A stretch of DNA of 64,000 nt from Nocardia carnea NBRC 14403 (GTDB lineage: Bacteria > Actinomycetota > Actinomycetes > Mycobacteriales > Mycobacteriaceae): assembly GCF_000308515.1 (NCBI RefSeq), contig NZ_BAFV01000039.1, forward strand, positions 62,001-126,000, written 5' to 3'. Positions 10,051 through 29,109 of this stretch are shown one piece after another. Every line of letters begins with the position of its first letter. The first letter of the stretch is position 1. A program made the position numbers and the translations under genes. The notes beneath the pieces are model-generated. The model was not told the origin of the DNA. It did no database searches and saw nothing but the letters and a program-made list of their open reading frames with translations.

Positions 10051-10068
10051 GTGGTGACCGCAGAATCG

Positions 10069-11091: not shown

Positions 11092-11125
11092 CGACGGTTC
11101 CTTCCACTACGGTCCGCGACGCGTT

Positions 11126-11894: not shown

Positions 11895-11941
11895 GCCCAC
11901 CTCTTCTTGTCGAGAGGTTCAGCCGCTAGGGTCGGCGTTAT

Positions 11942-11959
11942 CGAATTGAACTCAACTCA
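11942..11959. promoter_or_regulatory. Island operator site b
   Basis: CGAATTGAACTCAACTCA keeps the GAANTGAA and TCA blocks of the palindrome. It ends 10 bases before the start of the acyl-CoA dehydrogenase at 11970 and its centre is 65 bases from that of site a, so the two could control the divergent pair together. Confidence 0.55.
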
Positions 11960-11969
11960 AGGGGAGATT

Positions 11970-13112
11970 ATGCCTCCGACCTCGGCAGCACTCGTCGAAC
12001 ATCCCTGGCCGGGCTCGGAACCGCCGGGATTGTCCCCCGATCCCGAACAGGTTCAGCTGCGCGAATCGCTGCGGGGATTGCTCGGAAAATACAGCGATAT
12101 CGAACAGGTCCGGGCAGCCGCGAACACCGGCCTCGGCTACTCACCGCAACTGTGGCGGACACTCGTCGACGAGATGTCGGTGACCAGCCTGGCCGCACCG
12201 GAACACCACGGTGGCCTCGGCTACGGAACGGCCGAGCTGGCGGTCGTCCTCGAAGAATGCGGACGGGCACTGATCTGCGAACCCGTCTACAGCTCGGCAG
12301 TCCTCGGCACACACGCGCTGCTGACGGCACCGGAAGCCGAAGGTAATCCACTTCCGGACGTTCTGGCCGGGAACCTCGTCGCCACGATGAGTTCGCTCGA
12401 TCCGGCCACCGACGATCTGCGGGCCACGTCGAGCCCGCACGGTTGGCGGGTCGACGGCACGGTCACCCACCTCGTCGGCGGGCGCAGCGCCGATATCGTC
12501 ATCGCCTCGGCCGCGACGGCCGGCGGCCAGAGACTGTTCGCACTGCGACCACCGAATGATGCGGTGCGCACGGACCTGCGGGTACTCGACCCCACCAGGC
12601 GACAAGCCGATCTGACCGTGCGCGACTGCCCGGCCGTGGCACTCACCGCGCCCGAGGCCACCCCGGCGGTGCGCTCCCGCCTGCGCGACCTGGCGACGCT
12701 CGCCCTCGCCTGCGAAAACACCGGAATCGTCGAACGCCTGCTGGAAATGACCGTGGAGTACGCCGGTACCCGGCACCAGTTCGGCCGGGCCATCGGGTCG
12801 TTCCAGGCGGTCAAACACCGGCTGGCCGATCTGCTGGTATCGCTGGAACGCGCGCGCTCGGCATCGCGGTATGCGGCCGCACTCTATGCCGAGGACCCCG
12901 ATTCAGCCCGCCTGGCCGTCGCGGTGGCCGGTGCGGTGTGCACCGACGCCGCCGTTCACGCGGCGGCCGAGGCCGTGCAGCTACACGGCGGAGTGGGGTT
13001 CACCTGGGAACATCCCGCGCACTCCTATTTCCGCCGGGCATTGGGAAACGAAGCGGCGCAGGGTGATGCGCGCACGCACCGCGCCCGTATCGGTGCACTG
13101 ATCGGCGTGTGA
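11970..13112 (+). CDS. Acyl-CoA dehydrogenase (FadE-like)
   Basis: A 380-residue flavoprotein of the acyl-CoA dehydrogenase superfamily. The C-terminal domain has HQFGRAIGSFQAVKHRLADL and QLHGGVGFTWEHPAHSYFRRA, typical of mycobacterial FadE proteins that often act as one half of an alpha2beta2 enzyme. It lacks the usual GT(S)EIQ...AERVLG ending, which the dehydrogenase encoded at 15570 has, so the two may be partners. The ATG at 11970 follows aagggga. It is alone in its unit, read away from the SnoaL pair, with an island operator in front. Confidence 0.85.
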   Translation: MPPTSAALVEHPWPGSEPPGLSPDPEQVQLRESLRGLLGKYSDIEQVRAAANTGLGYSPQLWRTLVDEMSVTSLAAPEHHGGLGYGTAELAVVLEECGRALICEPVYSSAVLGTHALLTAPEAEGNPLPDVLAGNLVATMSSLDPATDDLRATSSPHGWRVDGTVTHLVGGRSADIVIASAATAGGQRLFALRPPNDAVRTDLRVLDPTRRQADLTVRDCPAVALTAPEATPAVRSRLRDLATLALACENTGIVERLLEMTVEYAGTRHQFGRAIGSFQAVKHRLADLLVSLERARSASRYAAALYAEDPDSARLAVAVAGAVCTDAAVHAAAEAVQLHGGVGFTWEHPAHSYFRRALGNEAAQGDARTHRARIGALIGV

Positions 13113-13170
13113 CCAGCCGCGACGTTCTCCGGAAATCCGTATTGACGCGCTTCGCGCCGTCGAGTACAAC

Positions 13171-13188
13171 TGAAGTGAATCCAGTTCA
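13171..13188. promoter_or_regulatory. Island operator site c
   Basis: TGAAGTGAATCCAGTTCA. It is identical base for base to site g, 17.9 kb away, although the surrounding sequence differs. It lies 25 bases before the first gene of the ten-gene operon. Confidence 0.7.
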
Positions 13189-13212
13189 GGAACTGATCCG
13201 AAAGAGGCTCCG

Positions 13213-14001
13213 ATGATCGACACCGACCACATCGTCCTGGAAAAAGACGGCGATATCGCACGCGTCTGGCTCAACCGCCCGCACAAGAAGAACGCAGTCA
13301 CGGTGGAACTGCTGCACCGGCTCGACGAGATCATCGTCGAGGTCGACAACGATCCCGAACTGAAAGTGCTGGTACTGCGGGGTCGCAACAACACCTTCTG
13401 CTCCGGTTTCGACCTCGACGAACTGCGCGAGAACTACGTCGGCAAGACCAACGCCATGGACGTCGCGGTGCTCTCCGCGAAGGTCTGCGACCGGCTCTAC
13501 TCGATGAACACCCCTTCGGTCGCGGTACTCGAAGGCTATGTCACCGCGGGCGGGTTCGAGCTCATGATCTCCTGCGATTTCGCGGTCGCCGCCGAGGACG
13601 CCAAGATCGGCGACTTCCACATCCGGCGGGCCCTCTTCGGCGGCGCCGGCCCGATCTACCGGCTCCCCCGGATGATCGGTATCCGCAAAACCAAGGAACT
13701 GATGCTCACCGGCAAGCTGCTGAACGGCCGTGAAGCCGCCGACTTCGATCTGATCAATGCCTCCGCCCCCGCCGCGGAACTGGATCAGCTCGTCGCCGAT
13801 TTCATCGCCCCGATCGTGGACAAGAGCCCGTTCGCCATGAAACTCACCAAGATGACCATCGATCGCGGTCTGGATGCCGATATCCAGTCGCTGATGGTGA
13901 TGGAACACCTCGCCGTCGGCAATGCCCTGCAGTCCGAGGACGCGCGCGAAGGCGTGAACGCCTTCCTGGAGAAGCGGGAACCGAAGTGGGTCGGGCGCTG
14001 A
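13213..14001 (+). CDS. Enoyl-CoA hydratase/isomerase family protein
   Basis: A 262-residue crotonase-fold protein. The oxyanion-hole region GRNNTFCSGFDLDEL and GYVTAGGFELMISCDF are clear. Aligned without gaps to classical hydratase, the first catalytic Glu (in FELM) is kept, but the second (in the usual PEILLG) is His here, in DFHIRRALFGG. Hydration may therefore be altered, and isomerase, hydrolase or retro-Claisen activity is possible. It is the first gene of the large operon behind operator c, with 35 bases to the next gene. An RBS-like aaagagg precedes the ATG. Confidence 0.85.
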   Translation: MIDTDHIVLEKDGDIARVWLNRPHKKNAVTVELLHRLDEIIVEVDNDPELKVLVLRGRNNTFCSGFDLDELRENYVGKTNAMDVAVLSAKVCDRLYSMNTPSVAVLEGYVTAGGFELMISCDFAVAAEDAKIGDFHIRRALFGGAGPIYRLPRMIGIRKTKELMLTGKLLNGREAADFDLINASAPAAELDQLVADFIAPIVDKSPFAMKLTKMTIDRGLDADIQSLMVMEHLAVGNALQSEDAREGVNAFLEKREPKWVGR

Positions 14002-14036
14002 ATTCCGGATAGCAGCGACGAATCGGAAGGGACGAC

Positions 14037-14411
14037 ATGGGTGAGCAGGTGAAACCGGTGCTGGAAGGCAGTAGGTGCGCGGGATGCGGCACGGTGGGTT
14101 ATCCGGCGAGCACGAACTGCGCGCGCTGCGCGGCACCGACCGCCGAACCGCTGGCGCTGAGCACCGAGGGCGTGGTGTGGGCGCATACCGTGCAACGGTT
14201 CGCACCGAAATCGCCGCCGTATGTCGTTCCCGCCGAAGGCTTCACGCCCTACGCGGTCGGCTATGTCGAACTTCCCGAGGGAATCCGGGTCGAGGCGATC
14301 CTCGACTGCGACGATTTCGCCGATCTGGACCGGGCACCGGTACACCTCGTCGCGGTAGCGCCGGTGCCGCGGTTCGCCACCACAACCCGTCAGCAGAGTG
14401 AGGTCCGGTGA
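14037..14411 (+). CDS. DUF35 OB-fold/zinc-ribbon protein, thiolase partner
   Basis: A 124-residue protein. An N-terminal zinc ribbon with CAGC and CARC (residues about 14-32) is followed by an OB-fold ending near RFATTTR. DUF35 proteins act as obligate partners of thiolase-fold enzymes, for example ChsH2-DUF35 with Ltp2 in steroid side-chain cleavage. The next gene, a thiolase-fold protein, starts inside its stop codon (GTGA overlap at 14408-14411), which fits a stoichiometric complex. The start at 14037 follows aaggga. Confidence 0.85.
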   Translation: MGEQVKPVLEGSRCAGCGTVGYPASTNCARCAAPTAEPLALSTEGVVWAHTVQRFAPKSPPYVVPAEGFTPYAVGYVELPEGIRVEAILDCDDFADLDRAPVHLVAVAPVPRFATTTRQQSEVR

Positions 14412-15559
14412 CCCAGCAGGTTTCGATCATCGGCAGCGGGCTGTCCCGCTTCGGCCGGCAGCCCGGGGTCACCGGAAGGCAACTCGCTGTCCACGCGATC
14501 GGTAATGCCCTCGCCGACGCCGGGCTGACCTGGCCCGATATCCAGGTTGCCTACGGCGGCAGCGACGGGTCCGGATTGGCCGATACCCTGGTGGCCGAAC
14601 TCGGCTTCACCGGCATCCCGTTCACCAATGTCAAGAACGGCTGCGCCACGGGCGGTAGCGCATTGTTCTCCGCGGTCAACGCGGTCCGCTCCGGCGCCGC
14701 GGAGATCGCCCTGGCCGTCGGTTTCGACAAACACCCGCGGGGCGCGTTCGATCCCGCCCCCGCCGATTGGGGCCTGCCCGAGGGGTACGGTTCGGCCGGG
14801 CTCATGGTGACAACCCAGTTCTTCGGCGCCAAGATCGGCCGCTATATGCGCGAGCACGGTATCTCCGCGGCGACGCTGGCCATGGTCGCCGAGAAGGCCT
14901 ACCGCAACGGCAGCCGCAATCCGAATGCCTGGCGGCGGGATCCGATCTCGGCGGAGCAGATCCTCTCGGCCGAGATGGTCAACGATCCGCTCACCAAGTT
15001 CATGTTCTGCTCTCCCGGTGAGGGCGGTGCGGCCGTGGTGGTCGCGAGTGCGGCCGCGGTCCGCCGTCTCGGCGGCCGGCCGGTCCGGCTGCGGGCCATC
15101 AGCCATCGCACCCGTCGATTCGGCTCCTTCGAGGTGTTCAGTCCCGCTGTCCAGGGCACCGGTGAACCGACCAGTGTCAGCGCGGATGCCGCCTCGGCGG
15201 CGTTCGAACAGGCCGGTATCGGACCGGCGGAGATCGGTGTCGCGCAACTCCAGGACACCGAGAGCGGCGCGGAGATCATGCATATGGCCGAATGCGGGTT
15301 CTGCGTTCCCGGGGCACAGGAGGAGATGATCGCGGCGGGCGCCACCGAGATCGACGGCCGGCTGCCGATCAATACCGACGGCGGGTGTATCGCCAACGGC
15401 GAACCCATCGGCGCCTCGGGGCTGCGGCAGGTGCACGAGATCGTGACCCAGCTGCGCGGCGAAGCCGGCGATCGACAGGTGCCCGGCGCGCCGAAAACCG
15501 GATTCACCCATGTGTACGGCGCCCCCGGGATCAGCGCCTGCACGGTTCTGTCGGTCTGA
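14408..15559 (+). CDS. Thiolase-fold protein (lipid-transfer/Ltp-type), probable retro-aldolase or ketothiolase with DUF35
   Basis: A 383-residue thiolase superfamily protein. The nucleophile region NGCATGGSAL keeps a Cys. The usual GHP motif reads NGEPIGASG, so the catalytic His is Glu, and the distal CxG loop reads YGAPGIS, so the second Cys is missing. Loss of these residues resembles the Ltp2 group, which performs retro-aldol rather than thiolytic cleavage with a DUF35 partner. Such a partner is encoded immediately upstream with a 4-base overlap. I infer C-C bond cleavage of a CoA thioester; the exact chemistry is open. Confidence 0.8.
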   Translation: MTQQVSIIGSGLSRFGRQPGVTGRQLAVHAIGNALADAGLTWPDIQVAYGGSDGSGLADTLVAELGFTGIPFTNVKNGCATGGSALFSAVNAVRSGAAEIALAVGFDKHPRGAFDPAPADWGLPEGYGSAGLMVTTQFFGAKIGRYMREHGISAATLAMVAEKAYRNGSRNPNAWRRDPISAEQILSAEMVNDPLTKFMFCSPGEGGAAVVVASAAAVRRLGGRPVRLRAISHRTRRFGSFEVFSPAVQGTGEPTSVSADAASAAFEQAGIGPAEIGVAQLQDTESGAEIMHMAECGFCVPGAQEEMIAAGATEIDGRLPINTDGGCIANGEPIGASGLRQVHEIVTQLRGEAGDRQVPGAPKTGFTHVYGAPGISACTVLSV

Positions 15560-15569
15560 GGTGGACACA

Positions 15570-16778
15570 GTGACAACACAGCAGCTTCCCGACCTCACCG
15601 AATTCACCGAGCAGGCCCGCGCCTGGCTCGCCGATACGGCGGCACCACGGACGGCATCCACCTGGGGTGCGGGGGACGATTCGGTGGCGGTTTTCGAGAA
15701 CTGGACCGCCGCGGAAGAACGCCGGCACACCGATCGCATCCGCGCCTACGAACAGGCCAAATTCGATGCGGGCTGGGGTGCGCTCACCTGGCCCGCCGAA
15801 TACGGCGGCCGGGGACTGCCGATGTCCTACACGCTGGCCTTCCGCCGCACCGAGGAAGAGTTCGAAATACCGCGGCGGACCGAGATGTTCTCGGTCACTC
15901 AGCAATTGGTGGCACCGACCATCGAGCAGTGGGGCACCGACGAGCAGCGGGAACGGTATGTGCGGGCGATGCTGCGTACCGATCTCATCGCGTGCCAGCT
16001 CTTCTCCGAAACCGAGGCCGGATCGGATCTGGCCGCGGTACGCACCAAGGCCACCCACAACGCCGACGGCACCTGGACCCTCGACGGGCACAAGGTGTGG
16101 ACCTCCGGGGCCCGGGTTGCCGACCTCGGGGTCGCGGTCTGCCGGACCGATTCCGCGGCACCGAAGCACGCGGGACTCACCGTCTTCCTGGTGCCGATGG
16201 ATGCACCGGGCGTCACCGTCCGGCCGATCCGGCAGATGACCGGCGGTACTTCGTTCAACGAGGTCTATCTCGACGGTGTGGTGCTCGGCGACGGGCTACG
16301 GCTCGGGCCGGTCGGAAAGGGCTGGCCGGTGGCGCTCACCGTGCTCGCCGCGGAACGGCTCGACGGCGCCGGGCTGGGGCTGGCGAATGCCGATCAGGCG
16401 GTGGAGCTGGCCCGTCACCTGGGCCGCGAACTGACGGAACTCGAACGCGACCGGGTCGCGGATCTGGTGACCCGCAGTTATGTGCAGCGGATCGCGGGAA
16501 TGCGGGTGGCCGCGGCGGTGGTCGCGGGCCGCGATCCCGGACCGGAGGCGTCGGTCGGCAAATTGCTCGCCACCGACACCATGGCCCGGACCTCCGAGGT
16601 CGTGCGGTTACTGCTCGGCCGGGAACTCACCGCGGATTCCGGACGCTGGGGTACTTACGCCTGGACCGAACACGTGCTGGGCGCGCCCGGGTACCGGATC
16701 GCGGGCGGGACCGACGAGATCCAGCACAACATCATCGCCGAGCGGGTGCTCGGCCTACCCAAGGAGCCGCGGCCATGA
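15570..16778 (+). CDS. Acyl-CoA dehydrogenase
   Basis: A 402-residue dehydrogenase. It contains CQLFSETEAGSDLAAVRTKA (FAD contact) and ends with the standard GGTDEIQHNIIAERVLGLP. It belongs to the long-N-terminus FadE group common in mycobacterial sterol and branched-acid pathways. The start is set at the GTG at 15570, seven bases after tgaggtgg; a GTG at 15561 is nine bases earlier. Its stop overlaps the next start (ATGA, 16775). It may pair with the dehydrogenase encoded at 11970. Confidence 0.88.
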   Translation: MTTQQLPDLTEFTEQARAWLADTAAPRTASTWGAGDDSVAVFENWTAAEERRHTDRIRAYEQAKFDAGWGALTWPAEYGGRGLPMSYTLAFRRTEEEFEIPRRTEMFSVTQQLVAPTIEQWGTDEQRERYVRAMLRTDLIACQLFSETEAGSDLAAVRTKATHNADGTWTLDGHKVWTSGARVADLGVAVCRTDSAAPKHAGLTVFLVPMDAPGVTVRPIRQMTGGTSFNEVYLDGVVLGDGLRLGPVGKGWPVALTVLAAERLDGAGLGLANADQAVELARHLGRELTELERDRVADLVTRSYVQRIAGMRVAAAVVAGRDPGPEASVGKLLATDTMARTSEVVRLLLGRELTADSGRWGTYAWTEHVLGAPGYRIAGGTDEIQHNIIAERVLGLPKEPRP

Positions 16779-17725
16779 CGCTGGAACAGCGTGTGCGTGA
16801 CCGGTTGCGCACCGACCTGGATATCGAGGTCACCGGATTCGAACCACTGCCCGGCGGACATTCGGGCCTCACCTACCGGGTAGCCACCACCGGCCCGGAG
16901 TTGGTGGCGAAGGCGGTGCCCGAGGGCCGTAAGCCGGTCGGCCGCCACGATATGCTGCGGCAGGCGCGGGTGATGCGCGCGCTGGCCCATACCGATGTGC
17001 CGGTGCCACGGATCGTGGCCGTCGACGAGGCCGAACCCGCTTGGTTCGCCATGGAATTCGTGACCGGGGAATCGCTCGAACCGGTCCTGGACGACCCCGC
17101 CGTCGAACCCGGCCTGGCGGCCGCAAGAATGCGGCGGGCCGCCGAGGTGCTGCCGCGGCTGCACGCGATCGACCCGGGCTCGGTGCCGGGCGTGGAAGCC
17201 GCACTGACACCCGCCGATGAACTCGCCCGCTGGGCGCGGACACTGGGCGCGGTGCCGCCCGAGCTGGTCGCGGGCGGTGACCGGTTGCTCGGCCTGCTGG
17301 GCAAGCGGATCCCCGAACCCGTGCCCCCCACGCTCGTCCACGGTGACTACCGGCTCGGCAATATCATTGCCGCCGGTACGGAACCGGTCGCGCTGATCGA
17401 CTGGGAGATCTGGAGCGCCGGTGATCCGCGCGTGGAACTCGGCTGGTTCCTGGTATTCGCCGACGGCACGAATTTCCCGGAGGTGGGCCGCACCGTACCG
17501 GGCCTGCCCGATCCCGCCGAACTCGTGGACCGCTACCGCGCGGGTGGCCCCGAACTGTCCGACCTGCCGTGGTTCGACGCGCTCGGACGGCTCAAGATGG
17601 CCGCCATCATGGGCCACAATCTGCGACGGCACCGAGAAGGCCGGCACCACGATCCGGATCAGGAAAAGCTGCCCGCCACCATCAATCGCCTCATCGAGAC
17701 CGGAACCGCGCTCCTCGCCGGTTGA
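16775..17725 (+). CDS. APH-fold phosphotransferase (ACAD10/11 or LvaA-like acyl-CoA kinase)
   Basis: A 316-residue aminoglycoside-phosphotransferase-fold kinase with the Brenner motif HGDYRLGN (about residue 188) and the metal motif DWEIW. Members encoded beside acyl-CoA dehydrogenases include LvaA of Pseudomonas, which phosphorylates 4-hydroxyvaleryl-CoA, and the N-terminal kinase domain of ACAD11. The next gene encodes an ACAD11-like dehydrogenase, so the same two-step logic (phosphorylate the gamma-hydroxyl, then eliminate) is likely. It is translationally coupled to the gene before it. A drug-resistance role is unlikely in this setting. Confidence 0.82.
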   Translation: MTLEQRVRDRLRTDLDIEVTGFEPLPGGHSGLTYRVATTGPELVAKAVPEGRKPVGRHDMLRQARVMRALAHTDVPVPRIVAVDEAEPAWFAMEFVTGESLEPVLDDPAVEPGLAAARMRRAAEVLPRLHAIDPGSVPGVEAALTPADELARWARTLGAVPPELVAGGDRLLGLLGKRIPEPVPPTLVHGDYRLGNIIAAGTEPVALIDWEIWSAGDPRVELGWFLVFADGTNFPEVGRTVPGLPDPAELVDRYRAGGPELSDLPWFDALGRLKMAAIMGHNLRRHREGRHHDPDQEKLPATINRLIETGTALLAG

Positions 17726-17753
17726 GGTCCTCCCCCGATTCAGGAGCCGTATC

Positions 17754-18956
17754 GTGGATTTCTCCTACTCCCCCCGCACTCGAGAGCTGCTCGACCGGCT
17801 CGGACAGTTCATGGAACAGCACGTCTACCCCGCCGAACGGGTGTACGACGAACAGATCGCCGCCGCGGACAATCCGCACGTTCAACCGCCGGTCATGCGC
17901 GAACTGCAAGCCGAGGCCCGGCGGCAGGGGCTGTGGAATCTGTTCATGACCCACGACGGCCTCGGTGCCGGGCTCACCAATCTCGAATACGCCCCGCTGG
18001 CCGAGATGGTGGGCCGTTCGATCATCGGCAACGAGACGATCAACTGTTCGGCGCCCGATACCGGCAATATGGAAATCCTGGCCATGTTCGGCACCGAACA
18101 GCAGCAGGACCGGTGGCTGAAACCGCTGCTGGACTGCGAGATCCGCTCGGCGTTCGCCATGACCGAACCCGCCGTCGCCAGCTCCGACGCCACCAATATC
18201 ACCTCCACCATCCGCCGCGACGGGGACCACTATGTCCTCAACGGCCGCAAATGGTACATCTCCGGAATCCTGGATCCGGACTGCAAACTGATCATCTTCA
18301 TGGGCAAATCCGATCCGGACGCCCCGGCGTACCGCCGGCAGAGCATGATCCTGGTGCCCGCCGACGCGCCGGGTATCGAGGTGCTGCGGGATCTGCCGAT
18401 GTTCGGATTCCACGACCGGCTGGGTCACGGCGAGGTGCAGTTCACCGATGTGCGTGTCCCGGCAGAGAACATGCTGGGCGCCGAAGGCGACGGTTTTGCG
18501 ATCGCCCAGGGTCGGCTCGGGCCCGGCCGGATGCATTACGCCATGCGTGCCATCGGAATGGCCGAACGCGCACTGGAACTCATGTGCCGGCGGTCGCTGG
18601 AACGGACCGCGTTCGGCGGACCGCTGGCCGACCGCGGGGTCGTACGCGAATGGATCGCGCGCAGCCGGATCGAAATCGATCAGATCCGGCTGCAGACCCT
18701 GCAGGCCTCCTGGCTGATGGATACCAAGGGCAACGCGGCGGCGCGTTCGGACGTCGCGGCCATCAAGGTCTCGGCGATGGAGGTCGCACACAAGGTGGTC
18801 GACCGCGCGGTCCAGACCTTCGGCGCGGCGGGGGTCAGCAACGACACCGTCCTGGCCCGGATGCACGCCATCACCCGCGCCCTGCAGATCGCCGACGGCC
18901 CCAACGAAGTACATCTGCGCACCATCGCGCGTCTCGAGGTGAAGAAGTACCGATGA
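17754..18956 (+). CDS. ACAD10/ACAD11-like acyl-CoA dehydrogenase
   Basis: A 400-residue protein of the ACAD11 branch, recognised by SAFAMTEPAVASSDATNI, NGRKWYISGILDPDCKL and the C-terminal IADGPNEVHLRTIARLE. In the 4-hydroxyacid route such enzymes act on the phosphorylated acyl-CoA made by an APH-type kinase, which is encoded 28 bases upstream. The GTG at 17754 follows caggag. Its stop overlaps the next start by four bases. Together with that kinase it makes a split version of the animal fusion protein. Confidence 0.85.
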   Translation: MDFSYSPRTRELLDRLGQFMEQHVYPAERVYDEQIAAADNPHVQPPVMRELQAEARRQGLWNLFMTHDGLGAGLTNLEYAPLAEMVGRSIIGNETINCSAPDTGNMEILAMFGTEQQQDRWLKPLLDCEIRSAFAMTEPAVASSDATNITSTIRRDGDHYVLNGRKWYISGILDPDCKLIIFMGKSDPDAPAYRRQSMILVPADAPGIEVLRDLPMFGFHDRLGHGEVQFTDVRVPAENMLGAEGDGFAIAQGRLGPGRMHYAMRAIGMAERALELMCRRSLERTAFGGPLADRGVVREWIARSRIEIDQIRLQTLQASWLMDTKGNAAARSDVAAIKVSAMEVAHKVVDRAVQTFGAAGVSNDTVLARMHAITRALQIADGPNEVHLRTIARLEVKKYR

Positions 18957-19708
18957 GCACAACGGATCTCAACGGCAAAGTTGCGCTGGTGACCGGCGCG
19001 AGCCGCGGACTGGGCCTGGCCATTGCGCGCGGACTACGCGACGCGGGCGCCACCGTAATCGTCTCCAGCCGCAAACTCGCGGCCTGCGAGGAGGCGGTCG
19101 CCGCGCTCGGCGACGGCCCCGGAAACGCGTACCCGCTGGACTTGCATGTGGGCCGGTGGGACACCCTCGAACCTGCCGTCGACGGGATCATCGAGCGCTT
19201 CGGCAGTCTCGACATCCTGGTCAACAATGCCGGGATCGCCCCGCTCGCCGAAAATCTCGCGTCGGTTACCGAAGGACTGTGGGACAAGACCATCGAGGTG
19301 AATCTGAAGGGCCCGTTCCGCCTCATGGCGGTCGCCGGGGCCCGGATGGCCGCCGCCGGCGGGGGTTCGATCATCAATATCTCGAGTATCGGCGCGGTGC
19401 GGCCGAGTCCGCCGGAGGCGATGTACGCCGCGGCCAAGAACGGGCTCAATGCCCTCACCATGGCTTTCGCGCAGGAGTACGCGCCGTCGGTGCGGGTGAA
19501 CTGTGTGATGCCGGGCGGGTTCGCCACCGATATGTCCGAGCACTGGGACGACGAATTCGTGGGCAAGATCATCGACCGGCTGCCCGCCGGACGGCTCGGC
19601 GATCCGGCCGAGATCGCCGGGCTGGTGACCCATCTCGCGAGCGATGCCGCCGGGTATACGACGGGTGCGCTGATCCCGGTCGACGGCGGCCGTACCGCGG
19701 TGTACTGA
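18953..19708 (+). CDS. Short-chain dehydrogenase/reductase
   Basis: A 251-residue classical SDR: GASRGLG near residue 16, NNAG near 92, Ser in ISSIGAV, and YAAAK as the catalytic pair. It ends with the usual LIPVDGGRTAVY. It is coupled to the ACAD11-like gene by an ATGA overlap, the position held by the SDR LvaD in the levulinate operon. It probably oxidises a 3-hydroxyacyl-CoA made later in the route; this is inference from position. Confidence 0.85.
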   Translation: MSTTDLNGKVALVTGASRGLGLAIARGLRDAGATVIVSSRKLAACEEAVAALGDGPGNAYPLDLHVGRWDTLEPAVDGIIERFGSLDILVNNAGIAPLAENLASVTEGLWDKTIEVNLKGPFRLMAVAGARMAAAGGGSIINISSIGAVRPSPPEAMYAAAKNGLNALTMAFAQEYAPSVRVNCVMPGGFATDMSEHWDDEFVGKIIDRLPAGRLGDPAEIAGLVTHLASDAAGYTTGALIPVDGGRTAVY

Positions 19709-19720
19709 GAGGCAGCGCAG

Positions 19721-20491
19721 ATGAATACACCGGTTTTGCAGGATCTTTTCGGACTGGACGGCCGGGTCGCCGTCGTCACCGGAGCATCCTCCGGTCTCGG
19801 CGCCGGTTTCGCGCGGGCGCTCGCCGGGGCGGGAGCCACCGTCTACGCGGCCGCCCGCCGGGTGGACCGGGTACAGGCGCTCGCCGCGGACGAACCGCGA
19901 ATCATCCCGGTACGCTGCGATGTCACCGACCCCGGGGACCGCGCCGAACTCGTCGACCGCTGCTACGAGCAGTCCGGACGCCTCGACATCCTGGTCAACA
20001 ACGCGGGCCGGGCCGGGCCGCCGAATGCGGAGCAAGAGACCGACGCCGAGTTCCGCGCCATCCTGGACCTGAATCTCCTGGCGGGATTCCACCTGGCGAC
20101 CTGTGCGGCGTGCAGGCTCCCTGAGGGGGAACGCGCGTCGTATATCAATATCTCCTCGGTGATCGGTCTCGTATCGACCGCGCCGATCGGTGGCGCCAGC
20201 TATGCCGCGTCCAAAGCCGGAACCCTGGGATTGACCCGCGAACTGGCCGGACAGTGGGGCCGCCGCGGTATCCGGGTGAACGCCGTGGTCCCGGGCTGGT
20301 TCGATACCGAGATGACCGACGGACTGTTCACCAATGAGAAATCCGCGGGCTGGGTGCGGCGCAACACCATGCTCGGCCGGGGCGGCCGGGCGGGTGAGGT
20401 GGACGGGGCCGTGGTTTTCCTCGCCTCGGACGCGTCCTCGTATGTGACCGGACAGGCGCTCGTCGTCGACGGCGGCTGGACGGCACGCTGA
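19721..20491 (+). CDS. Short-chain dehydrogenase/reductase
   Basis: A 256-residue SDR with GASSGLG (about residue 21), NNAG (about 94), ISSVIG and YAASK. It lies 12 bases after the preceding SDR gene but is not a close copy of it, so two distinct alcohol/ketone steps are likely. Its last base is the first base of the next start codon (TGATG). Confidence 0.85.
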   Translation: MNTPVLQDLFGLDGRVAVVTGASSGLGAGFARALAGAGATVYAAARRVDRVQALAADEPRIIPVRCDVTDPGDRAELVDRCYEQSGRLDILVNNAGRAGPPNAEQETDAEFRAILDLNLLAGFHLATCAACRLPEGERASYINISSVIGLVSTAPIGGASYAASKAGTLGLTRELAGQWGRRGIRVNAVVPGWFDTEMTDGLFTNEKSAGWVRRNTMLGRGGRAGEVDGAVVFLASDASSYVTGQALVVDGGWTAR

Positions 20492-21531
20492 TGCTGGCCG
20501 TTCAACTCACTGCCTGGGGCGCCGAACCCGAGCTCCGCGAGATCCCCACACCCCGGCCGCGGGGCGAAGAACTGCTCGTCCGGGTGACGGCGGCCGGTCT
20601 GTGCCGTTCCGACCTCCACGTCATGGACGCCGCGGCGGGCAGTTTCGACTATCCGCTGCCGCTCACCCTGGGCCACGAAGTGGCAGGGACCGTGGTGGAC
20701 GCGGGACCGGCCGCCGACCGCGACTGGCTCGGGGAACACGTTGTCGTGCACGGAATCTGGGGTTGCGGCGGCTGCCGTAACTGCCTGCGTGGCCGGGAGA
20801 ACTACTGCCTGCGCCTGCGACCGCGCGACGGTCGCGGCGCACCGATCGGCAACGGACTCGGTTATCCGGGCGGCCTGGCCGAAGCGGTGATCGTCCCCGC
20901 GGCCCGGTTCCTGGTGCGTTCGGCCGGTGTCGACCCGGTGCTCTGCGCCCCGCTGGCCGACGCCGGCCTGACCGCCTATCACGCGGTCCGCGAACATCGC
21001 GATCTCCTGGACGCGCACAGTGTCTGCGTGGTGATCGGGGTCGGTGGCCTGGGACATCTCGCGCTCCAGATACTGCGCGATTTCGGCGCCGGACGCATCG
21101 TCGCGGTCGATACCCGCTCGGACGCGCGGGATATGGCCCGGCGGCTGGGCGCCGACGCCGTATTCGGCGATATCGGTTCCGCAGCCGTGGCATTGAGTGA
21201 GGGCGCGGATCTGATCCTGGATTTCGCCGGTGCGCCGGATACGGTCGCCCCGGCAGCCGCCGCCCTGGCGCCCGGCGGTCGGCTGTCGGTGGTCGGTAGC
21301 GCCGGTGGACGGCTCGAGGCCGGTAAGGACGTGGGCCTGGCGGCCGGTTGGACGATGACGGCCCCGTTCTGGGGACCACGCGCCGACCTGGCGGCGGTGG
21401 TCGATATGGCCCGGCGGGGCGCGCTGCACGTCACCGCGCAGACCTACCCCCTGACAGCGGCGATCGAGGTCTACCGGCAGCTGCGGTCGGGCGCGATCAC
21501 CGGCCGCGCAGTTCTGGTCCCACCACCGTGA
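20491..21531 (+). CDS. Zinc-dependent alcohol dehydrogenase (MDR family)
   Basis: A 346-residue medium-chain dehydrogenase. The catalytic zinc motif (GLCRSDLH and GHEVAG) and the structural zinc Cys cluster (CGGCRNCLRGRENYC) are complete, and GVGGLG binds NAD(P). It should oxidise a secondary or primary alcohol, or work in reverse. It is coupled to the SDR gene upstream by a one-base overlap and followed 71 bases later by the CoA ligase gene. Confidence 0.88.
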   Translation: MLAVQLTAWGAEPELREIPTPRPRGEELLVRVTAAGLCRSDLHVMDAAAGSFDYPLPLTLGHEVAGTVVDAGPAADRDWLGEHVVVHGIWGCGGCRNCLRGRENYCLRLRPRDGRGAPIGNGLGYPGGLAEAVIVPAARFLVRSAGVDPVLCAPLADAGLTAYHAVREHRDLLDAHSVCVVIGVGGLGHLALQILRDFGAGRIVAVDTRSDARDMARRLGADAVFGDIGSAAVALSEGADLILDFAGAPDTVAPAAAALAPGGRLSVVGSAGGRLEAGKDVGLAAGWTMTAPFWGPRADLAAVVDMARRGALHVTAQTYPLTAAIEVYRQLRSGAITGRAVLVPPP

Positions 21532-21602
21532 CCGGCACAAACCGCCCCGCGGCGGAGGGGCAGGGAGTAAACAGAGAGCACAGCGGCACGAGGAACGGGT
21601 GA

Positions 21603-23120
21603 ATGAAAGCACTGGCGCAGGAGATGCTCGAACGAGCCGGGCGGGCACCGGCGGACATCGCCGTCATCGACGAGCTCGGACAGCACACCGTGGGCGAAAT
21701 CATGGCGACGGCGAACGCGCTCGCCGAACGTATCGCGGCCATCGACAGCCGGGGCCCGACCGTGATCATCCAGGCGGACAACACCTGGCATACGCTCGCC
21801 GCGGCGCTGGCGGTCGGCCTGCGGGGCGGGGTGGTCGCCGTGTTCAGCCCGCATGCCACCGAATCGGAGTTCCGGCTCGCGGTCGAGGATATCGACCCAG
21901 ATCTGGTGATCGGCGAACCCGCTGCCCTGGGTCGATGGGATGTGCCCGCGGCGGAATTCCCCGTCGCCGCCACCGCCTTCGGCGACCATCTGCTGCGTTC
22001 TCGCGGCATGCCGTTCGGCCCGGTACAGCGGTGGCGGGGCGGCAACGCCATCGCCATGACCTCCGGCTCCACCGGCCGGCCCAAATGCGTGGTCCAATCC
22101 GAGGACGCCATTCGCTACGCCTGCCGCAGCACCATCGATACCGTCGGCCTGCGGCCGGGTGAATCGGTGGGTGCGTTCGTACCGCTGTCGTCGGTCGCCG
22201 CGTTCTGCTTCGGTATGTATCTGCCGGCTTTCCTGGGCGGCACCATGGTCACCATCGGCAAATGGACCCCGTCCGCGGCGCTCGACGCCATGGCCGAACA
22301 CCGGGTCGCGTGGACCATGCTGGTGCCGACCATGGCCCTGCAGCTCTCGGTCACCGGCGACAGCGCCGGGCGACTGGCCGCTATGCGGGCCATGACCGTG
22401 GGCGGCGGCCCGATGAACCAGCGGGCCCTGGCCGAGGCCGAGACCAAGCTGGGCACCACCTTCCTCCGAGTCTTCGGGATGTCGGAATGTCTCGGCCACA
22501 CCACCCCGCGACCGGACGACTCCCCGGAAATCCGGCTGGGGCGTGACGGCCGCCCCTTCCCCGGCACTGTCGTCCGCGCGGTCGACGAATCGGGTGCCCG
22601 GCTGCCCACCGGGGCGATCGGCGACGCGCAGGTGAAGGGGCCTTCGTTGTTCGTGGGTTACGCCCGCGGCGGTGTCCCGGTCATGCCCGATCTCACCGCG
22701 GACGGATTCCTGCCCACCGGCGATCTCGTGGAGGTGGCCGCGGACGGTTCCATCCGGGTGATGGGCCGGCAGAAACAGATCATCATCCGCGGTGGCCGCA
22801 ATATCGATATCAACGAGATGGAGTCGGCGATCGCGGCGGTGCCCGGGATCGTGCAGGTCTGCGTGGTCCCGGTCCCCGACGACATACTGGGCGAGCGCGC
22901 GGCGGCGCTCGTTGTCGCCGACGGCAGCGCGCCGACGCTGGACAGCGTGACCGACCAGCTGGCCGCGGCGGATTTTCCGAAGTTCAAATGGCCGGAATAT
23001 CTTTTCCCGGTCGCCGACCTGCCGCAGAACCGGGTCGGGAAACTGTCCCGCCCCGACGCGATCCGACTCGCCACCCGACTCGCCGAAGCTGACTCGAATT
23101 CATCTCAGGTCGGGTTGTAG
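21603..23120 (+). CDS. AMP-forming acyl-CoA synthetase
   Basis: A 505-residue ANL-superfamily enzyme. The P-loop motif TSGSTGRPK is near residue 155. The A8 hinge region has GRQKQIIIRGGRNID, and a C-terminal Lys lies in PQNRVGKLSR. It activates a carboxylic acid as a CoA thioester and is the only ligase of the island, so it probably performs the entry step. It is the last gene of the ten-gene operon. An island operator lies inside its final codons and serves the TetR gene. Confidence 0.88.
   Translation: MKALAQEMLERAGRAPADIAVIDELGQHTVGEIMATANALAERIAAIDSRGPTVIIQADNTWHTLAAALAVGLRGGVVAVFSPHATESEFRLAVEDIDPDLVIGEPAALGRWDVPAAEFPVAATAFGDHLLRSRGMPFGPVQRWRGGNAIAMTSGSTGRPKCVVQSEDAIRYACRSTIDTVGLRPGESVGAFVPLSSVAAFCFGMYLPAFLGGTMVTIGKWTPSAALDAMAEHRVAWTMLVPTMALQLSVTGDSAGRLAAMRAMTVGGGPMNQRALAEAETKLGTTFLRVFGMSECLGHTTPRPDDSPEIRLGRDGRPFPGTVVRAVDESGARLPTGAIGDAQVKGPSLFVGYARGGVPVMPDLTADGFLPTGDLVEVAADGSIRVMGRQKQIIIRGGRNIDINEMESAIAAVPGIVQVCVVPVPDDILGERAAALVVADGSAPTLDSVTDQLAAADFPKFKWPEYLFPVADLPQNRVGKLSRPDAIRLATRLAEADSNSSQVGL
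23090..23107. promoter_or_regulatory. Island operator site d
   Basis: TGACTCGAATTCATCTCA; on the other strand it reads TGAGATGAATTCGAGTCA. It keeps the TGAATTC core and the outer TGA/TCA. It lies within the last codons of the CoA ligase and 58 bases before the TetR start, the position expected for autoregulation. Confidence 0.6.
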
Positions 23121-23164
23121 AGTTGACCGATCCACACACAGCCGATATTGGGGGCACGTAACTC

Positions 23165-23788
23165 ATGACCGTTGACACGGGAGCCCGGCGCGAAAGCCCG
23201 CGGTCGAAACGCAGCAGCATCCTCACGGCTGCCATCGAGCAGTTCGGGCGAATCGGTTACGAACATACGAAATGGGCCTCCATCGCCGACGAGGTCGGTA
23301 TCGGCCAGACCGCTCTCTACCACTACTTCGAGTCCAAGGCCCACTGCCTGCTCACGATCATGCGCCTGGAACTGGCCGATTCGGTGGATCGTTTCGTCTC
23401 GGCAACCGAGAACGAGACAGATCCCGAGAAGGCCCTGCGCGCCGCGGTGGCCGCCGCCCTGCGCGCGGAGCCGATCGACGCACTGCAACGCCGCATTCTG
23501 CAGAACCATATGGATCTGCTGGCCCAGCCGCGCCAATCGGAGAAAGAGGAAGCCGAACGGCTGCGGTCGCGGGAACTGGTCCAGGAGATCGAACAGAACT
23601 GGACCGAGCTGATCGAGCGTGGTATCGAGGCGGGCGTCTTCACCGGCGGCGATCCCAAGATCCTCGGCCGGATGGTGCTGGCCGTGGTGATCAGCGTCTG
23701 GCGCTGGTATCGCCCGGACGGCACGCTGACCTTGGCCGAGATCACCGAAACCGTCACCGATACCGCGGTACGGATGGTGCGCGCCTGA
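23165..23788 (+). CDS. TetR-family regulator, proposed repressor of the catabolic island
   Basis: A 207-residue TetR protein. The N-terminal helix-turn-helix reads ILTAAIEQFGRIGYEHTKWA, then VGIGQTALYHYFESKAHCL. The C-terminal helical domain would bind a ligand, likely an acyl-CoA or the free substrate. Operator d precedes it, and six more copies of the same palindrome precede the other units of the island, so it is the natural candidate for their shared repressor. The binding specificity is inferred, not shown. It is the only regulator gene between 11 and 36 kb. Confidence 0.88.
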   Translation: MTVDTGARRESPRSKRSSILTAAIEQFGRIGYEHTKWASIADEVGIGQTALYHYFESKAHCLLTIMRLELADSVDRFVSATENETDPEKALRAAVAAALRAEPIDALQRRILQNHMDLLAQPRQSEKEEAERLRSRELVQEIEQNWTELIERGIEAGVFTGGDPKILGRMVLAVVISVWRWYRPDGTLTLAEITETVTDTAVRMVRA

Positions 23789-23901
23789 CGCAGGCTCCGG
23801 CACGACGCCGGGCCACCGGTTCCGCACACCCGGGTGGGGACGTATCTACGCCTGGCCTCCGGGGCGGCACCCGGCCGGCGCCGTCGCTTACCCTACATAA
23901 C

Positions 23902-23919
23902 CGAACAGAATTCAGTTAG
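23902..23919. promoter_or_regulatory. Island operator site e
   Basis: CGAACAGAATTCAGTTAG. The GAATTCA core and the GTT arm match the consensus. The site overlaps the ribosome-binding sequence taggagag of the EthD gene, so the bound protein would cover the promoter-proximal region completely. Confidence 0.55.
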
Positions 23920-23927
23920 GAGAGATC

Positions 23928-24263
23928 GTGTACAACCTCATCGTGCTCGCATCCCGGCCCAGCGATTGGTCGCACGAGCAGTTCATCGAATGGTGGCGCG
24001 GCGAACACGCCGAGGTGACCTACCCGCTGCCCGGCCTGCTGCGCTGGCAGCACACCGAACTCCTCGACACCTTCGACGACAAATCGGCCGGCTGGGACGG
24101 CCTGTCGATCCTGAGCTTCGAATCCCGCGAGGCGCTCGAGGCCGCACTGGCCAGTCCCGAGTGGAAAGCGGCCGTAAAGCATGTCGGCGCGATGCGCGGC
24201 CGCCGCATGATCTGGTTCGGCGAAGAACAGACCATGGTGCCCCTGGGCGGCAGCGGCGAATGA
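23928..24263 (+). CDS. EthD-domain protein
   Basis: A 111-residue ferredoxin-like-fold protein of the EthD/dimeric alpha-beta barrel family, with the characteristic start YNLIVLASRPSDWSHEQFIE and a nearby WWRGEHA. EthD proteins accompany catabolic oxygenases, and some relatives are decarboxylases or lactone-forming enzymes. The GTG start at 23928 has a strong taggagag site. It overlaps the next gene by four bases and is the first gene behind operator e. Confidence 0.8.
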   Translation: MYNLIVLASRPSDWSHEQFIEWWRGEHAEVTYPLPGLLRWQHTELLDTFDDKSAGWDGLSILSFESREALEAALASPEWKAAVKHVGAMRGRRMIWFGEEQTMVPLGGSGE

Positions 24264-25279
24264 GCACGCACTGGGCCGAGCCCGGCTGCTACCCCGTCGC
24301 CGACGGAATCCACCGTATTCCGCTGCAACTACCGCAGGACGGATTACGCGCGGTGAACGTCTACGCGCTGGAAACCGATACCGGCATCGTCCTGATCGAC
24401 GGGGGCTGGCACCGCCCGGACACTTACCGCGAGCTCACCGCCGGTCTCGCACGGATCGGCCGCTCCCCCGACGATATCCACGATGTCCTGGTCACCCATA
24501 TCCACCGCGACCACTACACCTTCGCGGTGGAACTGCGGCGCCGCCACGGCTGCCGCGTTCATCTCGGCGCCGCCGAATCCGCCGGGCTCGCGGCGATCCG
24601 CGCACTCGGCAACAATGTGCCCACCAGTTCCCTGCGCGAACTACGCCGCGCCGGCGCCACCGGTCTCGCGGCGCGCGCGTACGCCGACAGTATCGGCGAA
24701 CCCTTCGACCTCGCCGACTGGGCAGCCCCCGACCGCTGGCTGCAGCCCGGGACACTCACCCTCGGCGGGTACGAACTCGAAGTCCGCGCCACACCCGGGC
24801 ACACCAAGGGACACTTGGTCTTCCAGGACCGCGCCCGGCGCCTGCTGTTCACCGGCGACCATCTGCTGCCGACCATCACACCCTCCATCGGCTTCGAACT
24901 GGGCACCTGGGAACTCCCGCTGGACAATTTCCTGAACTCGCTCGCGCTGCTCCGCGACGACGATGATCAGACCATGCTGCCCGCCCACGGCCCGGACGGT
25001 GGCAACGCCGGCCGGCGAGCCCGGGACCTACTGGATCACCACGATCGGCGATTCGAGCAGATCCGCACTGCCGTCACCGAACTCGCCCCCTGCACGGGCC
25101 TCGAGGTCGCCCGCGCGCTGACCTGGACGCGCCGGGAGCGCCCGTTCGACACCCTCGATACGTTCAATCAGATGGTGGCCACCTGCGAAACGATGGCACA
25201 CCTCGACGTTCTGGTCGCCCGGAACGTTCTGACCGGCGAAACAGACTCCGGCATCGATATTTTCGCCCCCGCGCACTGA
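24260..25279 (+). CDS. Metallo-beta-lactamase-fold hydrolase
   Basis: A 339-residue MBL-fold enzyme. The metal motif is THIHRDHY, the expected HxHxDH, and further ligands lie in TPGHTKGH, TGDHLL and PAHGPD. A C-terminal helical domain of about 90 residues resembles that of lactonase or thioesterase-like members. It probably hydrolyses a lactone, thioester or ester intermediate of the island. It is co-translated with the EthD protein (ATGA overlap). Confidence 0.85.
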   Translation: MSTHWAEPGCYPVADGIHRIPLQLPQDGLRAVNVYALETDTGIVLIDGGWHRPDTYRELTAGLARIGRSPDDIHDVLVTHIHRDHYTFAVELRRRHGCRVHLGAAESAGLAAIRALGNNVPTSSLRELRRAGATGLAARAYADSIGEPFDLADWAAPDRWLQPGTLTLGGYELEVRATPGHTKGHLVFQDRARRLLFTGDHLLPTITPSIGFELGTWELPLDNFLNSLALLRDDDDQTMLPAHGPDGGNAGRRARDLLDHHDRRFEQIRTAVTELAPCTGLEVARALTWTRRERPFDTLDTFNQMVATCETMAHLDVLVARNVLTGETDSGIDIFAPAH

Positions 25280-25436: not shown

Positions 25437-26201
25437 TCAGGCGCAGGTCCAGCCCCCGTCCACGTAGAGTTCGCTGCCGGTGACGAATGTCGAGTCGTCT
25501 CCGGCCAGGAACGCTACCGCGGCGGCTACTTCCTCGGCCCGGCCGAGCCGGTCCATCGGGGTGTTCGCCAGCATCGCGCGATACCGGTCGGTGCCTTCGT
25601 AGCGTTCGAGCAGTTGTCCGGTTTCGATGAAGCCGGGATGGATCGAGTTGACCCGCACGCCTTTCGCCGCCCAGTGCAGGGCGGCGTTCTTCGTCATGGT
25701 CCGTACCGCGCCCTTGGCGGCCGCGTAGGCGAGACTGTTACCCAATCCGCCGACTGTGCCGAGGATCGAGCAGAGGTTGACGATTGCGCCGCCCCCGCTC
25801 TGCTCGATCAGGGCTCCGGCATGTTTCATACCCAGCCAGGTGCCGGTTTGACTCACCTCGATCACACGGTTGTAGCGGTCGAGGTCTTCGTCGACCACCG
25901 AGGCCAGGCTGCCGATGGCGCCGTTGTTGACCAGGGCGTCCAAGCGCCCGTAGCGGTCGCGCACCGCGCTCACCGTGGCGCCCCATTCTTCTTCGCGGGC
26001 GATATCGAGGGGCCGGGCGAGATGGTTGTCCGGCCGGTCCAGGGTGGCGACGAGATCGGCGCAGGCTGCCTCGCCGAGGTCGGTCACCACCAGCACGGCG
26101 CCTTCGGCGGCGAGGCGGCGCACGATCTCCACTCCGATACCGCCGGTCGCACCGGTCACCAAAACCACCTTGTCGCTCAACCGCGAGGGACCCGTAGCCA
26201 T
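25437..26201 (-). CDS. Short-chain dehydrogenase/reductase
   Basis: A 254-residue SDR with GATGGIG (about residue 19), NNGA instead of NNAG (near residue 90), a Ser in LCSILG and YAAAK. It ends with ELYVDGGWTCA. It is the last gene of the leftward operon that starts with the binding protein at 30970, placed 46 bases after the permease gene. The start at 26201 follows aaagg. Confidence 0.85.
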   Translation of the reverse strand: MATGPSRLSDKVVLVTGATGGIGVEIVRRLAAEGAVLVVTDLGEAACADLVATLDRPDNHLARPLDIAREEEWGATVSAVRDRYGRLDALVNNGAIGSLASVVDEDLDRYNRVIEVSQTGTWLGMKHAGALIEQSGGGAIVNLCSILGTVGGLGNSLAYAAAKGAVRTMTKNAALHWAAKGVRVNSIHPGFIETGQLLERYEGTDRYRAMLANTPMDRLGRAEEVAAAVAFLAGDDSTFVTGSELYVDGGWTCA

Positions 26202-26247
26202 GGCAGGCCTTTCTGTTTCGAGGGAAAGTGTGCGGGCCGGCCGCCGT

Positions 26248-27945
26248 TCACAACTTGTTCAGCACATTCCGGCCGCCGACGAGCATCGCAACACCCACCC
26301 CCACGGTGGTGACCGCGGTCATCAACAGCGCCATCGCGGCCACCAGCGGATAGGAGCCGTTCTGCCACAGATCGAACAACAGCGTGCCCATCACCTGGGT
26401 GGTCGAGGCGCGCACCAGCAGCGAAGCGGCGAATTCGTGCGTCAGCAGGATGAACATCAGGGCGACGGCGCTGAGGATGGTGGGCCGCATCAACGGCAGC
26501 ATCACCCGCAGATTCGTCACCAGCGGCGACGCGCCACTGGTCGCCGACGCCTCGCTGTAGGTGTTGCCGAGCGAGAGCATGGCGGTCATCTGCATCCGGG
26601 TCGCGTACGGCAGCATCAGCACGATATAGACCAGGATGATCACGGCCTGGGTGCCGTACAGGATGAGCGGCGGCTCGGTATAGGTGAGCAGAAAGCCGAC
26701 ACCGAAGATGACCGCCGGAATGCCCAGGGGCAGCGCGGTGATCAGATCGGCCAGCAGCGCCATGATTTTGAACTGCCGGCCGCGGACCAGCAGGGTGGCC
26801 ATCAGGTAGCCCAGCGGTACGCAGATCAGCACGGCGGCCAGCGAGGTCGACACACTGGTGAGTACGGAGCTCACGATGGCGCTGTCGGCGGCCAGGGCAC
26901 GGAAGTTGTCCAGCGTGAGCAGATCCCAGGACAGCGACCCGGACCAGTACGGGGTCAGCGCGACGATGATCAGTCCGATCAGTGGGATGATCAGCGCCAA
27001 CAGGGCGTACACCACAATGGTCACCGTGGCCCACAGCGAGCGGCCCCCGGCCGGAGCGAAGGATTTCCCGCCATGGGTGACGAAGCGGGATTGGTTGCCC
27101 AGCAGACCTTTCTGGATCAGCACCAGCACCAACCCGAAGATCACCAGTGGTGAACCGGCGGCGGCCGCCGCGGCGAAATCCGACGGTGATTCCGAGACCC
27201 GCCGATACATCTCGGTCGTCAGCACTTTCACGCCGTAGTTCTGGCCGAGCAGCAGCGGGCCGGTGAACTGGCCGAGCCCGAGCAGCAGCGCGATACCGCC
27301 GCCGTAGATCAGTGACGGCCGCAGCAGCGGCAGGACGACCCGGAAGAACACTCCGACGGTGGAGGATCCGCTGACCTGCGCGGCCTCCAGATGTTCGGCA
27401 CCGATGTTCTGCATGCCGGCGCTGACGAACAGGTACACGAACGAGGTGAGCCCGAAACCGGTCAGGATGATGATCCACGGCACGGTGTACACGTCGATCG
27501 GCCCGGAATCCGTGCCGCTCCACCAGGGCAGCTTCCGGAGCAGAACGTTCAGGTAGCCCGGCCCGGGTGAGAGCAGGAATGCCCAGCCCACGATGTTGGC
27601 GACCGCGGGCATCACGATCGGCAGGATCGGGATGATCCGCAGGAACCCGAATCGTTGCGGCAGCCGGCTCGCCGCGAACGCGAGCAGCGTGCCGAGCACC
27701 ATGGCGATCACCAGCGACCCCAGCGCGAGCGCGATGGTGGTCCCGATGGTTTCGCCGATATCGAAGCGGGTGTACTGCGCCCGGTAACCGCGGGCACCGT
27801 CCTCGAAGGCCAGCGACTGCAACCGGATCATCGGCAGCACCACGAGATATGCCAGCACGGCCAGCAGGGCGAAATACCCGAGCCGGGTCCGCCATTGCGC
27901 CGGTATGGCGAAGGTGCGGTTCACGGCGGTGGTGACGGTGGCCAT
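26248..27945 (-). CDS. ABC transporter permease, fused double domain (FbpB/PotBC type)
   Basis: A 565-residue membrane protein with about 12 transmembrane segments in two halves. Each half has an EAA-type loop (EHLEAAQVSGSSTVGVFFRVVLP in part, and YSEASATSGASPLV with LPLMRP). Fused permeases of this kind serve type-2 binding proteins for ferric iron, thiamine, aminophosphonates or organic acids. Its start overlaps the stop of the ATPase gene by one base. Because it sits in a catabolic regulon, I favour an organic substrate over iron. Confidence 0.88.
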   Translation of the reverse strand: MATVTTAVNRTFAIPAQWRTRLGYFALLAVLAYLVVLPMIRLQSLAFEDGARGYRAQYTRFDIGETIGTTIALALGSLVIAMVLGTLLAFAASRLPQRFGFLRIIPILPIVMPAVANIVGWAFLLSPGPGYLNVLLRKLPWWSGTDSGPIDVYTVPWIIILTGFGLTSFVYLFVSAGMQNIGAEHLEAAQVSGSSTVGVFFRVVLPLLRPSLIYGGGIALLLGLGQFTGPLLLGQNYGVKVLTTEMYRRVSESPSDFAAAAAAGSPLVIFGLVLVLIQKGLLGNQSRFVTHGGKSFAPAGGRSLWATVTIVVYALLALIIPLIGLIIVALTPYWSGSLSWDLLTLDNFRALAADSAIVSSVLTSVSTSLAAVLICVPLGYLMATLLVRGRQFKIMALLADLITALPLGIPAVIFGVGFLLTYTEPPLILYGTQAVIILVYIVLMLPYATRMQMTAMLSLGNTYSEASATSGASPLVTNLRVMLPLMRPTILSAVALMFILLTHEFAASLLVRASTTQVMGTLLFDLWQNGSYPLVAAMALLMTAVTTVGVGVAMLVGGRNVLNKL

Positions 27946-29108: not shown

Positions 29109-29109
29109 C

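Follow-up and report, generated by a model that had tools for sequence, protein, structure and literature searches.

An operon of 11 genes is present on the + strand of contig NZ_BAFV01000039.1 from Nocardia carnea NBRC 14403, in the 64,000-nucleotide stretch analyzed here (the window; all positions refer to it). The operon spans positions 11970–23120. Two of its genes are adjacent and encode an APH-fold kinase (16775–17725) and an ACAD11-like acyl-coenzyme A (CoA) dehydrogenase (17754–18956). From their sequences, the two proteins rather probably form a two-protein machine for hydroxyl removal within a catabolic operon. In this family, the kinase forms a 4-phosphoacyl-CoA and the dehydrogenase eliminates the phosphate with a redox-active FAD, which yields a 2-enoyl-CoA (PMC12440821, PMC11342911). 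The overall family reaction is expected here because the pair of phosphate-binding Arg residues is kept, as is the Asp base, and because both genes are co-inherited.

Hydroxyl removal by a flavoprotein through phosphate elimination was shown in animals only in 2024–2025. The operon represents a natural variant, with an essential His changed to Tyr and a kinase that lacks a modelled CoA contact, and this variant is found across many actinomycete families. It makes two questions of mechanism testable, i.e., the use of FAD and the role of the HCMR motif. The operon also points to a catabolic pathway of soil actinomycetes; in animals and Pseudomonas, enzymes of this kind strip a hydroxyl so that an acid can serve as fuel.

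Organization of the module

The initial annotation described a kinase gene coupled to the operon and followed by an ACAD11-like gene and a short-chain dehydrogenase/reductase (SDR) gene, with a CoA ligase at the end; its coordinates, 16775–23120, are exact. The gene set is present but incomplete in that description: a second SDR and an alcohol dehydrogenase precede the ligase, and the operon starts approximately 4.8 kb upstream, at 11970. The kinase/ACAD11-like module is only one piece of it. The kinase open reading frame begins with ATG at 16775 and overlaps the stop codon of the upstream dehydrogenase gene (ATGA overlap). A spacer of 28 bases, with an AGGAG inside and no intervening gene, separates it from the GTG start of the ACAD11-like gene at 17754. 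That gene in turn overlaps SDR1 (18953–19708, the position equivalent to LvaD) at an ATGA, and SDR1 is 12 bases upstream of SDR2 (19721–20491). SDR2 shares one base with a zinc-dependent alcohol dehydrogenase gene (20491–21531), and 71 bases further is the gene for an AMP-forming acyl-CoA ligase (21603–23120). Pfam assigns APH (1.9e-29) to the kinase, three acyl-CoA dehydrogenase domains to the ACAD11-like protein and AMP-binding (1.1e-45) to the ligase; both SDRs and the alcohol dehydrogenase also have Pfam matches.

The ACAD11-like dehydrogenase

The dehydrogenase is 400 aa in length. In a comparison with solved structures it matches 4hr3 from M. abscessus at 2e-128 and mouse ACAD11 at 1e-123, and the best other acyl-CoA dehydrogenase at 1e-42; the earlier name, ACAD11-like, is thus appropriate. 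By sequence it is a member of the ACAD10/11-LvaC family. With residues numbered by published ACAD11 positions (PMC12440821), the equivalents of R626, R631, R637 and D753 are kept. The last is the catalytic Asp, which lies in an ADGP motif and is present instead of the usual Glu. R626 and R637, the phosphate-binding Arg residues, are invariant across the operon-type clade. A phylogenetic tree places the operon-type dehydrogenases in one group (support 100/100) that includes two relatives from Mesorhizobium and Pseudofrankia. This group is nested in a larger one (99/99) with mouse and human ACAD11, i.e., inside the ACAD10/11 family, as had been proposed.

The kinase

The kinase is 316 aa and displays the motifs K46, Q63, D148-E149, HGDYRLGN and DWE. 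A sequence search of solved structures gave 3dxp (9e-22), 9o56 (1e-15), ACAD11 (3e-12), Rv3168 (7e-11) and 9fsg (6e-7); the last was named as a 25-hydroxysteroid kinase by a later fold search. The structural model has a pLDDT of 91.5, and its fold search ranks 3dxp best, then Rv3168 and the 25-hydroxysteroid kinase (17–19% identity in the fold alignment), with antibiotic kinases later. An antibiotic or choline kinase was considered and rejected: none is among the PDB sequence matches up to E 10, and the antibiotic and thiamine kinase models score far under their cut-offs, e.g., 35 bits for the APH(3') model compared with a cut-off of 205. The absence of a grouping with such kinases agrees with the initial annotation.

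Column counts were made for operon-type kinases and others, and these include duplicate genes, with most loci selected through the dehydrogenase motif. At the ATP position, Lys is present in 113/113 operon-type kinases and Arg in 38/38 others. The Asp of HGD, the catalytic Asn and the metal-binding Asp are invariant in both sets, and DWE is kept. The Arg beside the helix-C Glu position is also kept, but the R86 of the published work is not exactly matchable by number.

In the kinase tree the operon-type kinases and five relatives of the same K/Q type form one clade (100/99). Its sister clade (93/87) contains the mouse ACAD11 kinase, 3dxp, 9o56 and the lva-like kinases. The trees represent LvaA, LvaC and the 25-hydroxysteroid kinase by proxies, which are lva-like loci on Azoarcus/Burkholderia plasmids and solved structures. 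With the lva-like loci standing in for LvaA, the tree puts the kinase outside the LvaA/ACAD11 kinase clade, and the expected grouping with LvaA and ACAD10/11 was not recovered. Three of the K/Q relatives (loci L247, L248 and L249) have an HHAMR ACAD11-type dehydrogenase beside them or at a distance of approximately 1 kb at most, and the other two (L245 and L246) are in clusters with a 37–39% identical ACAD11-type gene and thiolase-like genes. The closest relatives of the Tyr634 dehydrogenase (59–62% identical) are found with R/E-type kinases, and because of this pairing the kinases and ACAD11-type dehydrogenases seem to have exchanged partners.

The L245 locus is in another Nocardia genome. 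Its positions 8632–18600 represent a paralogous operon with a K/Q kinase, a large dehydrogenase, an SDR, an OB-fold protein, a thiolase-like protein and a 39% identical HHAMR ACAD11-type gene.

Conservation and co-inheritance

This gene order recurs in 13 further Nocardia genomes, on two Rhodococcus plasmids and in additional actinomycete genera, which is far beyond chance. In a search of 150 relatives the dehydrogenase is present at 86–100% identity in 14 genus genomes, and everything else is at or below 62%. The reverse search detects the kinase at 76% or more in exactly these 14 genomes. All recovered kinases (113/113, duplicates included and most loci selected through the dehydrogenase motif) directly adjoin a same-strand dehydrogenase of the operon clade. 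Synteny includes the operon and its flanks in the genus genomes fetched and the two Rhodococcus plasmids; one genus copy is on a contig of only 3.8 kb.

A scan of named genomes for the Tyr634 motif reveals at least 118 loci from many actinomycete families, mostly operon copies. The core keeps its gene order across Nocardia, Rhodococcus, Gordonia, Williamsia, Dietzia, Nocardioides, Aeromicrobium, Streptomyces, Amycolatopsis, Lentzea, Actinoplanes, Sphaerisporangium and Arthrobacter. Its constant part, determined in 11 further genera (14–20 kb each), consists of the hydratase, OB-fold protein, thiolase-like protein, large dehydrogenase, kinase, ACAD11-like protein, an SDR and SDR2. SDR2 is kept by every lineage that retains the operon. 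SDR1 is swapped in Streptomyces and some others for another SDR, about 35% identical to SDR1, and the alcohol dehydrogenase is found in part of the lineages only.

Streptomyces, Amycolatopsis, Lentzea, Nocardioides and Allosalinactinospora have a second kinase-dehydrogenase pair next to the operon or in its vicinity (L010, positions 22801–25034; L229, L230, L240, L241 and L243). The dehydrogenase of this pair keeps His634 in the Streptomyces copy examined. The second pair suggests that a single pathway removes hydroxyls at two steps. A fused mutase of IcmF type, which was identified from its translation and resembles isobutyryl-CoA mutase, adjoins the operon in Streptomyces (L010, 2727–6512) and Nocardioides (L229, 15553). 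No publication on this gene set turned up in a literature search.

Proposed pathway

The operon opens with a small-subunit-type, IpdE2-like acyl-CoA dehydrogenase gene (11970–13112), assigned by profile matches. It is followed by genes for an enoyl-CoA hydratase (13213–14001), which is the operon's most conserved protein (94–99% in the genus), and an OB-fold protein of ChsH2/DUF35 type (14037–14411), both of which have profile matches. The OB-fold protein is the partner of an SCP2-thiolase/BbsB-like protein (14408–15559), and a large-subunit-type acyl-CoA dehydrogenase gene (15570–16778) precedes the kinase gene. The NCBIfam matches of the dehydrogenase pair and of the OB/thiolase-like pair (IpdE2, BbsAB and ChsH2-Ltp2 types) are under the curated cut-offs. 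The thiolase-like protein keeps Cys79, but both catalytic His residues are replaced, by Q282 and E332, in 77/77 operon copies. The HDxF motif (the HDxF/NEAF site) reads QDTE and GHP reads GEP. The classical thiolase reaction is doubtful because Gln and Glu replace both catalytic His residues in every copy; a retro-aldol cleavage would fit the altered site.

The gene set and order, the family and residue signatures and the co-inheritance are read from the sequences, and from these we infer the order of reactions, the C4 position and the retro-aldol step. The ligase would form the acyl-CoA, and an SDR would set or keep a hydroxyl, which is likely to be on C4. The kinase would phosphorylate this hydroxyl of the acyl-CoA, probably at the gamma position, and the dehydrogenase, via its Asp base and FAD, would eliminate the phosphate as ACAD10/11 do, which gives a 2-enoyl-CoA. 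The hydratase may next add water, and the OB-fold/thiolase-like pair may cleave the chain, more likely in a retro-aldol than in a classical thiolytic reaction. Ordinary desaturation, of a chain that is bulky or branched, would fall to the heteromeric dehydrogenase pair.

The operon most likely represents a catabolic pathway for a larger acid that is probably cyclic or branched. Such an acid is favored because of the heteromeric dehydrogenase pair, the OB/thiolase-like pair and the IcmF-like mutase of some lineages, which are leads and not results. Both the kinase and the dehydrogenase depart at key residues from the enzymes studied so far, and for this reason the compound that the operon degrades is probably a new one. 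The substrates weighed were steroids, levulinate, gamma-lactones and isoprenoids of the abscisic acid type, and none is named here. For abscisic acid, a Rhodococcus route by side-chain shortening is described, and no link to the operon is drawn.

Comparison with known systems and alternative explanations

The animal ACAD10/ACAD11 proteins (PDB 8v3u, 8v3v, 2wbi) share with the operon the dehydrogenase family, the catalytic Asp, R626, R631 and R637, and the kinase plus dehydrogenase as a functional unit. In the operon, however, these are two separate proteins, with YAMR in place of HCMR, and the kinase, in the sister clade, has Lys instead of Arg at the ATP position and Gln instead of the helix-C Glu, and lacks R176. 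An ACAD10/11-type pair had been proposed; the pair does lie in a CoA-thioester catabolic operon, but neither the kinase nor the dehydrogenase, with its Tyr634, is of the typical form.

These departures weigh against hydroxyl removal of the family type. The His at position 634, essential in ACAD10/11 and LvaC, is Tyr in the operon (LGPGRMHYAMR), and its change to Ala or Leu is among the most disruptive substitutions in ACAD10/11 (PMC12440821). The column pattern is R-R-Y-R-D in 136 operon-type sequences, a set in which some genes were fetched twice and many were chosen by the motif, vs R-R-H-R-D in 65 others, animals included. Tyr634 is likewise present in orthologues retrieved by similarity alone (genus genomes and Rhodococcus plasmids), and so it is not an artefact of the motif search. 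In the kinase, helix C has Gln in 113/113 operon-type sequences and Glu in 37/38 others. R176, a modelled CoA contact in the ACAD11 kinase (PMC12440821), is Arg in 37/38 others and D, G, E or A in the operon type. We found no published assay of any member of the operon-type clade.

The lost R176 opens the possibility that the kinase phosphorylates a bulky terpenoid- or steroid-like hydroxyl that is not recognized through CoA, and that the ACAD11-like protein eliminates the phosphate later or from a position other than C4. Rv3168 and the 25-hydroxysteroid kinase, which acts on a tertiary alcohol, are its fold neighbors after 3dxp. The heteromeric dehydrogenase pair, the IpdE2-like subunit and the ChsH2-like OB protein are parts known from cyclic substrates, and the isobutyryl-CoA-mutase-like neighbor in Streptomyces and Nocardioides points the same way. 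We consider this unlikely, if not far-fetched: the operon includes a CoA ligase, the residues that position the phosphate beside the CoA thioester chain are kept in the dehydrogenase, and a single lost contact, itself modelled, is no proof that CoA binding is lost. The Sterolibacterium 25-hydroxysteroid kinase (PDB 9fsg, 9ft5) is similarly an APH-fold kinase that phosphorylates a hydroxyl for later phosphate elimination, but no phosphate lyase is known for it and there is no candidate near its gene (PMC8449060), unlike the operon's pair. The IpdE2, BbsAB and ChsH2-Ltp2 modules also have the heteromeric dehydrogenase pair and the OB-fold plus thiolase-like pair, but the operon's thiolase-like protein is without both catalytic His residues. 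Alternatively, the ACAD11-like protein may now be an ordinary acyl-CoA dehydrogenase, or act on another gamma-substituent, with the kinase in a separate step. H634Y is fixed in the clade, and it has appeared once more, independently, in a separate lineage of the tree, mostly Pseudomonadota and gammaproteobacterial for the most part. Yet both phosphate-binding Arg residues and the Asp base are invariant, and kinase and dehydrogenase are co-inherited, neither of which an ordinary dehydrogenase would need; this explanation is quite improbable. Independent Tyr634 ACAD11-type loci are L083, L099, L101, L107, L118, L169, L182 and L184.

Acquisition of a levulinate (lva) operon by actinomycetes is very improbable. 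The split kinase and dehydrogenase, the adjacent SDR and the CoA ligase match Pseudomonas LvaA, LvaC, LvaD and LvaE, a likeness that had been pointed out and that extends to no more than about half of the operon. The kinase clade differs from that of the lva-like loci on proteobacterial plasmids, and the dehydrogenase does not group with them. A TetR regulator replaces the sigma-54 regulator LvaR. There are seven further genes, including the dehydrogenase pair, the hydratase, the OB/thiolase-like pair and a second SDR, and SDR1 and the alcohol dehydrogenase are not conserved across lineages. A plain lva copy is ruled out by the trees, the regulator and the extra genes, as the initial annotation had concluded. 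Neither LvaR nor the small partner LvaB is at the locus, and the 28 gene-free bases between kinase and dehydrogenase agree with the reported lack of LvaB. This absence was taken to set the operon apart from lva, but it does not discriminate: the Pseudomonas citronellolis lva cluster is also without LvaB (PMC6692424), and conversion by either recombinant ACAD10 or ACAD11 on its own is reported (PMC12440821).

Hydroxyl removal by the kinase and dehydrogenase thus remains the preferred explanation. A broader proposal, put forward tentatively, is a second, previously undescribed lineage of phospho-elimination systems, with a new K/Q kinase subfamily that has exchanged partners with ACAD10/11-type dehydrogenases and a phosphate pocket altered by H634Y. 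In it, a widespread actinomycete operon would free a cyclic or isoprenoid acid of a blocking hydroxyl before a non-classical thiolase cleavage.

Flanking genes

Downstream of the ligase on the + strand are genes for a TetR-type regulator (23165–23788; named from an annotated Rhodococcus orthologue that is 72% identical), an EthD-domain protein (23916–24263) and a metallo-beta-lactamase-fold hydrolase (24260–25279). The latter two are co-conserved, as determined by Pfam and synteny. A class search gave no specific class for the metallo-beta-lactamase-fold protein, which could be a lactonase or thioesterase. Divergent to the operon, on the - strand, is a gene for a SnoaL-like protein (11494–11877; Pfam and synteny), which adjoins a gene for a small protein (11126–11497, -) that is co-conserved by synteny and has no Pfam match.

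An ABC importer (permease, ATPase and two solute-binding proteins) and SDR genes are at 25437–30985 (-) and 33142–34185 (+) and are syntenic with the Rhodococcus plasmid cluster. The importer probably provides uptake for the operon's pathway. Also near the operon, at 31093–33036 (+), is a gene for a 647-residue FMN/FAD oxidoreductase of the 2,4-dienoyl-CoA reductase type, of which the Rhodococcus plasmid cluster holds only a distant relative (35%). In other parts of this genome (G000), other APH-fold kinase genes are adjacent to acyl-CoA dehydrogenase genes on contigs C5, C56 and C9, and are 2–5 kb apart from them on C74 and C87. Kinase-dehydrogenase pairs are a common feature of this organism.

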